Source of the DNA: Chloroflexota bacterium | Lineage (GTDB): Bacteria > Chloroflexota > Limnocylindria > Limnocylindrales > CSP1-4 | Direction of reading: 5' to 3' | DNA: 57,538 nucleotides | Assembly (NCBI GenBank): GCA_003171255.1 | Contig: PMYK01000041.1 | Span: 1-57,538 of the forward strand | Shown here: positions 42,999 through 46,306 of the stretch, piece by piece | Layout: each line of letters starts with the position of its first letter | Position numbering within the stretch: the stretch's first letter is position 1 | Made by a program: the position numbers and the translations under genes | Notes under the pieces: generated by a model | Databases searched by the model: none | What the model saw: only the letters and a program-made list of their open reading frames with translations | What the model was told of the DNA's origin: nothing

Positions 42999-43114
42999 TC
43001 GGGCCGATCCGGCATCTTCAGGAACGCAGCCCGACGACACCGGCCGCCCAGCTGTGCGACCATTCGCGGGCGCGGCGCCGTTTCGGCGAAGCTGGCGCCG
43101 ACACGGAGGAATCG

Positions 43115-44431
43115 ATGTTCAGGCGACGCGAACGGCGCGACGAGTCGGAAGTCCCGGTTGACGCCCTCGAGGCAGAGATCGACGCGACGGCCGAAGAGCT
43201 CGAAGGCGATGGGCTCGACGAGAACGAGCTGGCGGACCAGCCCGAGGACATGACGGCAGACCTGGAGTCGCAGGCCGCCGACTACCTCGCCGACAACGAT
43301 GTTTGGATGTACGGCCCCAACGCCGAGGCCGTTCTTGAGATCCTCGACCGGCTAGAGGAGATGGTCCCGGACGAAGCGCGACCTCTCGCCGAAGCCTGGC
43401 TGGCGATCCCGAAGTCGGACCGCGAGCGCGCCCGGAAGGTCGCCCGCAGGATGGCCGAGGACAACGAGGAGATCGGCCGCCATCTCCAGCTCGTCCGTGA
43501 AGCCGTCGGCACATGGATGGCAGTCACGGGTCCGTACCCGGAGTTCGTCGCGACAGACCCGGACTGGGGCCGGAACTGCGCCCAGAGCGGCGAGGCGGCG
43601 CTCGATGCGGCTACCGCCGTGATCCTCGAGGGCAAGCTCGAGGAGAAGCACTACGAGGCGCTGCTCGAGCCGTGGTCGGAGACGATGGCGGAGCTCGACG
43701 CCGCAGCCGAGGCGGCGAAGATCGAAGGCGCGCCTGACGGCGAGCCCGACGCCGATGCGGACGACGGCGAGGACGAAGACGACGAGGCTGCCGAGGGCGA
43801 GTTCGGGCCCAACTCGCTCGAGGTCGCCGACTTTCTGAACCGCTTGTGGCTGCTGACGCCCGAGCAGGTCGGACGACTCGTAAGCGGCTGGCAGAGCGCC
43901 GAGCGCGATGACCTCAAGGCCGCGCACGAGAGACTCCGAGTCCTGGTCGCCGAGGACCCCGAGTGGCGCGACCAGGTTCGAAATGCCCAGAACAACCTCA
44001 CTCCATGGCTCAACGCCGGGCGCGTCCAGGAGACGTCCGGTTTCCTCGGTCAAACCGGGCAGGGCGAGTCTCGAAAGATGGCCGGCCCGGCTCTGGCCGA
44101 TGCCGTTGCCGCCCTCGTGCTGGGCGATCTGCTCGATCGTGGCGACGCGGAATTGCTGTACGGGGCGTGGTTCAATCTGATCGGCGCGCCGGCACTGCCG
44201 GCTCAAGGCGCGGAGGACCAAGCCGTGGCGAAACCCCCAAAGGCCGAGAAGCCCAAGAAGGCATTCGCGAAGACGGATGCGGCCGTCGGCAGACCGAAGC
44301 CAGGCTCCGTCAAGGCTGTCTCGGCGCCACCGGCGAAGCCGGCCACGCCGCCGACCGCGAAGGCCGCCCCCGCACGCAAGGCCCCCGCCACAGGCAAGGC
44401 CGGCAAGGCCGGCAAGGCCGCGAGGAAGTGA
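43115..44431 (+). CDS. Uncharacterised acidic protein with two 'GPN...PW' modules and a Lys/Ala/Pro-rich (H1-like) C-terminal tail
   Basis: Good SD (ggagga) before ATG; modules at 43301-43687 and 43796-44185; tail AKPPKAEKPKKAFAK...KAAPARKAPATGKAGKAGKAARK. Confidence 0.82.
   Translation: MFRRRERRDESEVPVDALEAEIDATAEELEGDGLDENELADQPEDMTADLESQAADYLADNDVWMYGPNAEAVLEILDRLEEMVPDEARPLAEAWLAIPKSDRERARKVARRMAEDNEEIGRHLQLVREAVGTWMAVTGPYPEFVATDPDWGRNCAQSGEAALDAATAVILEGKLEEKHYEALLEPWSETMAELDAAAEAAKIEGAPDGEPDADADDGEDEDDEAAEGEFGPNSLEVADFLNRLWLLTPEQVGRLVSGWQSAERDDLKAAHERLRVLVAEDPEWRDQVRNAQNNLTPWLNAGRVQETSGFLGQTGQGESRKMAGPALADAVAALVLGDLLDRGDAELLYGAWFNLIGAPALPAQGAEDQAVAKPPKAEKPKKAFAKTDAAVGRPKPGSVKAVSAPPAKPATPPTAKAAPARKAPATGKAGKAGKAARK
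44231..44428 (+). other. Basic low-complexity Lys/Ala/Pro tail-coding segment with ggcaaggcc 9-bp tandem units near the 3' end
   Basis: ggcaaggccggcaaggccggcaaggcc near 44393-44419; encoded GKAGKAGKA. Confidence 0.8.
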
Positions 44432-44437
44432 GCAATT

Positions 44438-44458
44438 GGCTCGGGCGGCGCCCGAGCC
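44438..44458 (+). other. Intergenic GC-rich hairpin between tandem paralogs (9-bp perfect stem)
   Basis: ggctcgggc-ggc-gcccgagcc, no following T-run; just upstream of the next SD (ggagg). Confidence 0.7.
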
Positions 44459-44468
44459 CGGAGGGTCG

Positions 44469-45638
44469 ATGTTCCACAGGAAGAAGCCCGACGCCGGCGA
44501 CGAACCCAATCGGCTCCGATATGAAGCGCAGCCAAACACCTTGAGTTGGGGCGCTGGCGACGCGGCCGAACCCGCCGAGCAGGACTTCGTGGCCACCGAC
44601 GACTTCGACGAGGACGAGGACGCGGACGCGGTCCAAGGAGACGATCCCGAGACTGCCGCCCGCAAGGCCGCGGAGCTGCAGGCCGAGCTCGAGCGCCAGG
44701 CGGAGGAGTTCGGGCTGACCGGCCTCGACACGGCCTCCATCTATGGCCCGAACGGCGAGGCGGTCGTGTCGCTGCTCGAGTCGCTGCCGACCATCGACTA
44801 CGACACCGCCGAGGCTATAGCGGACGCGTATGAGGCGATCCCGGGAGCGGAGCGCAAGATCGCCCAGGCTGAGGCTCGCCGGCAAGCCCGTGCCAGCGAC
44901 CTGGACGCCGAGGCTCAGACCGCCGAGCGGGCCGTCGCGGACTGGTTGGCTTCCCTGATCCTTTCGGACGACGATGAGGGACTATTCCGCATCGTCGCCG
45001 ATGCGGCCTCGGACGCCATAGACGCCCTCGTCCTGGAGGACGATCTGGCCGAAGTCGACTTCGCCACGCTATACGGCCCATGGTCGGATGTGATGGACAC
45101 CGAAGGCGACGATGACGCCGCTTCGGGCGACGGCTCAGTCGATCAGGCGGCCAGCCCGGCGGCCGACGCGGAAGACGAATCCGAGGCAGATGCGGAGGAC
45201 GAGGGCGAGTTCGGTCCGAATACCGCGCTGGTGGTCGACTTCCTGACCCGGCTCAGCGGCCTTGACTCAATTGGGACTGGGGAAGTCGTGGCCGCCTGGC
45301 GCGAACAACCGAAGGAAGAGCTGAAGGCGGCCCACCGGTCTCTGCAGGCCCTGGCCGACGAAGACCGAAAGTGGCGCGAGCAGCTGCGGCTTGCCCAGGA
45401 GGAGATCTTCGCCTGGATGGACCATCGGACGACCAAGCTGCTCGAACGCTTCTCCGCCACGAGCGACGCCCGTATCCGTGAGTCCGCCGGCCCCGCGGTC
45501 GCCGACGCAGTCGCCGCCCTGGTCATGGCCGACATGCTGGAGCCCGACGATGCCGAGACGCTCTACGCGCCCTGGGCGAAGACCGTCGGCCAGCCGGCCC
45601 TGCCCGAGTACGAGGACGAGGACGAAGGGGCCGACTGA
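44469..45638 (+). CDS. Uncharacterised acidic protein, paralog of the preceding gene, two 'GPN...PW' modules
   Basis: SD ggaggg before ATG; modules at 44733-45095 and 45204-45590, e.g. DEGEFGPNTALVVDFLTRLSG...ELKAAHRSLQALADEDRKWREQLRLAQEEIFAWM...ADAVAALVMADMLEPDDAETLYAPW. Confidence 0.82.
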   Translation: MFHRKKPDAGDEPNRLRYEAQPNTLSWGAGDAAEPAEQDFVATDDFDEDEDADAVQGDDPETAARKAAELQAELERQAEEFGLTGLDTASIYGPNGEAVVSLLESLPTIDYDTAEAIADAYEAIPGAERKIAQAEARRQARASDLDAEAQTAERAVADWLASLILSDDDEGLFRIVADAASDAIDALVLEDDLAEVDFATLYGPWSDVMDTEGDDDAASGDGSVDQAASPAADAEDESEADAEDEGEFGPNTALVVDFLTRLSGLDSIGTGEVVAAWREQPKEELKAAHRSLQALADEDRKWREQLRLAQEEIFAWMDHRTTKLLERFSATSDARIRESAGPAVADAVAALVMADMLEPDDAETLYAPWAKTVGQPALPEYEDEDEGAD

Positions 45639-45700
45639 CCGCACGGCCACGATCGCCGGCGAGCACCTCGGCGCGTCCTCTAGACGGTAAACTCGCGTCC

Positions 45701-46306
45701 ATGAAGCAATCGATCGTCACCCTGGACATGGAAGGCGTGCTGACGCCGGAAATCTGGATTGCCGTGTCCGAAAAGACGGGCATTCCGGAACTGCGCCGCA
45801 CCACGCGCGATGAGCCCGACTACGACAGACTCATGCGCGGGCGCCTGGCCATCCTGGACCAGCATGGATTGAAGCTGTCGGACATTCAGAATGTCATCGG
45901 CACGCTGCATCCACTGCCCGGCGCCAGGGAGTTCCTGGATGAGCTGCGGTCATTCGTGCAGGTCGTGATCCTGTCAGACACATTCGAGCAGTTCGCCGCT
46001 CCCCTGCTCCGCCAGCTCAACTTCCCGACCCTGCTGTGTCACCAGCTGGTCGTCGAGAATGACCACATCGTGGATTACCAGCTGCGCATCCGGGAGCAGA
46101 AGCGCGAGGCCGTGGCCGCGTTCAAGCGCATGAACTACAACGTCATCGCCGGGGGCGATTCGTTCAACGACACGGCCATGCTCGGCGAGGCTCACCGGGG
46201 CATCCTGTTCCATGCGCCGGAGAACGTGAAACAGCAATTCCCCCAGTTCCCGGCCGTCGAAACCTACGCCGACTTGATGGGTCTGATCAAGCAAGCGATG
46301 GCGTAG
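45701..46306 (+). CDS. thrH: ThrH: phosphoserine phosphatase/homoserine phosphotransferase
   Basis: MKQSIVTLDMEGVLTPEIWIAVSEKTGIPELRRTTRDEPDYDRLMRGRLAILDQHGL; VVILSDTFEQFAAPLLRQLNFPTLLCH; MNYNVIAGGDSFNDTAMLGEAHRGILFHAPENV. Confidence 0.92.
   Translation: MKQSIVTLDMEGVLTPEIWIAVSEKTGIPELRRTTRDEPDYDRLMRGRLAILDQHGLKLSDIQNVIGTLHPLPGAREFLDELRSFVQVVILSDTFEQFAAPLLRQLNFPTLLCHQLVVENDHIVDYQLRIREQKREAVAAFKRMNYNVIAGGDSFNDTAMLGEAHRGILFHAPENVKQQFPQFPAVETYADLMGLIKQAMA

Follow-up and report, generated by a model that had tools for sequence, protein, structure and literature searches.

Phage relatives of the A and B genes

The closest described relatives of the genes reported here are members of the phage protein family phrog_8332, which are coded by Propionibacterium freudenreichii phages (E6, PFR1, and others) and Clavibacter phages (CN1A). 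These proteins are found in phage and prophage gene clusters, and in phage E6 the phrog_8332-type genes directly precede RecE/RecT-like genes. They are organized with an N-terminal domain of ∼120 aa (profile positions 1 to 120) followed by a single Ala/Trp-rich module that starts with [FL]GP and ends with L..PW. Shorter proteins of actinobacterial plasmids also match the family (Mycolicibacterium, E = 6.1e-10), and a prophage-like contig of the same bacterial family as the genome studied here (contig C63 of G032, locus L153) contains RecT-like and metallopeptidase-like open reading frames (ORFs), with a phrog_8332 gene truncated at the contig end.

The window, a 57,538-nucleotide stretch of Chloroflexota DNA, contains two adjacent genes, A and B, whose modules have the same start and end. 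Unlike the phage proteins, A and B are acidic, contain two modules each, and lack the phage N-terminal domain, and they lie between the biosynthetic genes lysC/DLH and thrH/thrC/hom. Profile comparisons show homology between the entire module and the C-terminal half of phrog_8332 (profile positions ∼122 to 246). In a PHROGs scan, 23 of 25 modules match the family, and the matches of gene B (1.8e-11) and gene A (9.9e-7) cover positions 122 to 244 of 248. Because the phage domains are Ala/Trp-rich, a shuffle control was needed: a reciprocal profile made without phage sequences scores the phage domains at 29 to 45 bits across the whole module, and 300 shuffles per phage sequence give at most 11.5 bits. 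The link is found only with a profile, as tblastn searches of phages and plasmids with single Chloroflexota modules gave no relevant match.

Organization of the A and B genes

The initial annotation had described two adjacent ORFs with strong Shine-Dalgarno sequences, and both are present where it placed them (Table 1). Comparison with the nearest relative, G039, gives dN/dS ratios of 0.24 (A), 0.27 (B), and 0.11 (thrH), and by this measure A and B look like true genes under purifying selection. They diverge faster than their neighbors, with 40 to 76% identity versus 90 to 98% for lysC. Neither protein has a hydrophobic stretch of the transmembrane type (best KD19 value, 1.6), and both are therefore likely to be cytosolic; a Pfam scan gave no match to a DnaJ domain, or J-domain with an HPD motif, in A or B.

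Table 1. Features of the A-B locus (window coordinates)
Feature	Coordinates	Strand	Remarks
Shine-Dalgarno GGAGG, gene A	43105..43109	+	Direct reading; ATG at 43115
Gene A	43115..44431	+	438 aa, pI 4.46, net charge -39
Module A1	43298..43687	+	Residues 62-191; 130 aa, length constant in 16 orthologues
Acidic linker of A	43688..43795	+	47% D+E; neither length nor sequence conserved
Module A2	43796..44197	+	Residues 228-361; 53/134 columns invariant
Lys/Ala/Pro-rich tail of A	44198..44428	+	Varies among species
Shine-Dalgarno GGAGGG, gene B	44460..44465	+	Direct reading; ATG at 44469
Gene B	44469..45638	+	389 aa, pI 4.05, net charge -68
Acidic N-terminus of B	44469..44630	+	Residues 1-54; predicted disordered, pLDDT below 50
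Helix before module B1	44646..44708	+	Residues 60-80; predicted; counterpart of A segment ADLESQAADY
Module B1	44733..45095	+	Residues 89-209; phrog_8332 match 6.8e-9
Acidic linker of B	45096..45203	+	44% D+E; predicted disordered
Module B2	45204..45602	+	Residues 246-378; modelled as six-helix bundle
thrH	45701..46306	+	Neighboring gene, outside the module family; NCBIfam equivalog TIGR02137, 306 bits vs cut-off 223.4

Four copies of one module and the order of duplication

The two genes had been proposed to contain four copies of one module, and the sequence comparisons confirm that all four segments of ∼130 aa are mutually homologous. With each module entered as its own orthologue alignment, all six pairs align in profile-profile hhalign comparisons (A1-A2, E = 2.3e-13; A1-B1, 4e-22; A1-B2, 3e-19; A2-B1, 2e-13; A2-B2, 3e-45; B1-B2, 2e-17), and the pairwise z-scores against shuffled sequences range from 7.5 to 25. 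The second modules are closest to each other, as had been noted, with 59 of 133 positions identical between A2 and B2 versus 46 of 119 between A1 and B1.

In a phylogeny of 74 modules, the two first modules (A1, B1) form one group and the two second modules (A2, B2) another (97% SH-aLRT each), and every class clusters, although with few columns the inner order is resolved only partly. From this pairing, the internal duplication is older than the gene duplication. Both genes also have a helix preceding the first module, in which ADLESQAADY of A aligns with AELERQAEEF of B, and together with the tree this supports derivation of A and B from a two-module ancestor by whole-gene duplication; the hhalign comparisons and the tree thus bear out the order that the initial annotation had suggested.

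Module A2 is the best-conserved part of either protein, with 40% invariant columns. Its loop GFLGQTGQGESRK (window 44030-44090) is strongly conserved in A orthologues and is possibly a binding site. The same loop was considered as a P-loop and rejected, since the spacing is similar but the key lysine is missing and the model is all-helical. The conserved W71, W124, D101, and A102 of the B2 module may be just core residues.

Predicted structure, linkers, and termini

AlphaFold2 predicts the B2 module, modelled with 24 relatives, to form a six-helix bundle at high confidence (pLDDT, 92.8; pTM, 0.87), and full-length B is predicted to consist of a disordered region at residues 1 to 54 and two folded modules separated by a disordered linker at residues 217 to 243. 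The comparison of orthologues agrees with this picture, in that the modules keep their length and 57 to 73% identity, whereas the linkers keep neither (27 to 35%). The description of the linkers between copies as Asp/Glu-rich holds when measured, at 44 to 47% Asp plus Glu. Gene A codes for a basic C-terminal tail of 77 aa that is rich in Lys, Ala, and Pro, with 16 Lys plus Arg in the last 60 residues, and this is missing or non-basic in many of the orthologues (about half).

Searches with A, B, or all 25 modules against Pfam, NCBIfam, and PADLOC gave only sub-threshold single matches, and no family passed the curated cut-offs of Pfam or NCBIfam. A sequence profile search of the PDB returned weak, partial helical matches (designed helical repeats among them) with E values of 0.002 or worse, which were set aside as non-specific. 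A Foldseek search with the isolated module, one of the checks proposed at the outset, found no significant fold in the PDB (best E = 1.2, probability 0.15), and nothing significant was found in BFVD; a weak Foldseek match to a protein of Propionibacterium phage Doucette (probability 0.38 over 37 residues) fits the phage link without proving it. The initial annotation's view that the module belongs to no known family thus stands for Pfam, NCBIfam, PADLOC, and PDB sequences and folds, but not in view of the phrog_8332 match and the Chloroflexota relatives described below. It had also held that a strong match to a characterized family would overturn that view; the family that is matched, phrog_8332, is itself functionally uncharacterized, and the domain is without a function assignment in any database used here.

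Module relatives in Chloroflexota

Within the order, a profile built from the 25 modules has matches in 56 of 126 genomes, every one a member of family f1, and matches in other families of the phylum reach E = 7e-11; reversed and shuffled controls fall far below the real scores in every case tested. Profile searching, which had been suggested for taxonomic range, places the module in other Chloroflexota families and not solely in A and B. The relatives include single-module proteins coded by ORFs of ∼140 to 200 aa, which in the genus of the window have E values of 1e-23 to 1e-38, and the same genome has a fifth copy of this type (C55:6843-7220). These differ from A and B in containing one module without an acidic linker and in having no lysC or thr genes nearby. 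The fifth copy (L113:6789-7229) adjoins ORFs resembling an S9-type peptidase and a thioredoxin, both named by eye, and this neighborhood is common to the counterparts in five other genomes of the genus. When the neighbors of single-module genes of other lineages were clustered, no common neighbor was found except among close relatives.

The module also occurs in other architectures. Three proteins (L041, L132, and L159) of genus g25, which belongs to the same family, have the module after a DnaJ domain (PF00226, E = 4.5e-13 to 5.5e-15), in contrast to A and B, which have neither a DnaJ domain nor a transmembrane-like stretch. L132 and L159 extend beyond the module through a hydrophobic stretch and a Pro/Thr-rich region to a terminal segment that, by eye, resembles PASTA but has no Pfam match. 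Two further proteins (L157 and L166) have the module behind a hydrophobic N-terminal stretch. In family f22, three proteins of 590 to 659 aa (L129, L130, and L131) contain several module-like repeats, apparently a separate expansion; the first copy alone has a good score, the other repeats having been read by eye, such that these are probable multi-module proteins.

The DnaJ fusions of g25, together with the Lys/Ala/Pro tail of the window's A protein, raise the idea of a chaperone-like or nucleoid-associated function, in which acidic modules and a basic tail would together hold client proteins or work in the manner of a histone chaperone. This appears distinctly unlikely, as the basic tail is lost from about half of the orthologues, the J-domain is absent from A and B, and no nucleic-acid-binding family is matched.

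Possible roles of the A and B proteins

The reading that we favor, at slightly less than an even chance, is that A and B act in the cytosol as a pair of acidic scaffolds or adaptors. They would be a co-inherited, soluble, strongly acidic pair, each carrying two helical interaction domains, the six-helix modules of ∼130 aa, which are rigid themselves and set on flexible tethers of high charge. In an ancestor of the genus, one module copy would have been duplicated within a gene and the two-module gene then duplicated, with the A-B pair becoming fixed at the site that holds thrB in sister genera. The modules would serve as protein-protein interaction domains, with the principal binding face on A2, the best conserved of them, and with the disordered acidic linkers spacing them apart; we infer both this binding role and any partnership between A and B.

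The adaptor or scaffold role is suggested because the rigid helical domains recombine with many partners and are here paired on acidic tethers: the module is seen alone, with DnaJ, behind a hydrophobic stretch, in proteins that probably have several modules, and with the phage N-terminal domain, and shuffling of one module among architectures is typical for interaction domains. However, mobile domains can also be enzymes or toxins, and the adaptor reading is weakened because no PDB fold match lends a function and because the conserved residues of B2 may belong simply to its core. A broader proposal, that the module is a general interaction domain common to phages and their hosts but absent from curated collections, and that A-B is a genus-specific two-protein adaptor, possibly of the co-chaperone type, seems rather unlikely.

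The homology with the C-terminal half of phrog_8332 could alternatively reflect domestication of a phage gene, in which A and B would derive from a phrog_8332-like protein and still act on DNA metabolism or in conflicts between phage and host, acidic inhibitors that mimic DNA being one example. The RecE/RecT-like neighbors in Propionibacterium phages and the phrog_8332 gene on the prophage-like contig of the same bacterial family fit such an origin, and the strong negative charge of A and B would fit DNA mimicry, but the net charge comes mostly from the disordered linkers rather than from the fold, and the PADLOC scan gave no match. Moreover, A and B lack the phage N-terminal domain, cellular single-module proteins are common across the phylum such that transfer could have occurred in either direction, and the genes are kept at one site, next to biosynthetic genes, in 21 of 21 genomes. 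Domestication is thus an improbable explanation.

Whatever the role, these comparisons provide a domain that can be named, with a confidently predicted fold, for proteins missed by curated libraries, and connect cellular proteins of Chloroflexota with phrog_8332, a phage family that has no assigned function. Since the module recurs next to DnaJ, after a phage domain, and in tandem arrays, a ligand identified in any one of these architectures would inform all of them.

The A-B locus and threonine biosynthesis genes

The A-B pair is found in one genus only, in which A or B is present in all 21 genomes and the partner is missing only where a contig ends; A precedes B wherever both share a contig. 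The thrH gene follows B in the 18 loci whose contigs extend that far, and is inverted in one genome (G053). In sister genera, the genes are organized as hom-thrC-thrB, followed by DLH, lysC, and birA, and A-B-thrH (window 43115-46306) occupies the position of thrB (compare L173 to L178). Searches for thrB found it in four of four sister genomes and in none of seven genomes of the A-B genus. A search for thrH in 10 sister genomes found none, using a query that recovers thrH in the A-B genus but without a positive control of its own. ThrH thus appears to have displaced ThrB (homoserine kinase) in this genus, a substitution that a homoserine phosphotransferase activity of ThrH would allow, and in this one genus A-B-thrH would have taken over the site of the homoserine kinase gene.

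The joint presence of A-B and thrH at the sister-genus thrB site, with their linkage kept in the genus, could suggest that A and B are accessory to threonine synthesis, regulating or scaffolding ThrH as the apparent homoserine kinase replacement. We regard this as highly improbable, as the inversion of thrH in G053 and the variable spacing argue against a strict operon, and the whole surrounding gene order is conserved, so linkage says little; to our knowledge, ThrH elsewhere functions without A/B-like partners. In genome G046, an additional module ORF (L052:1718-2266) lies immediately after B, with an assembly gap inside and unsure boundaries.
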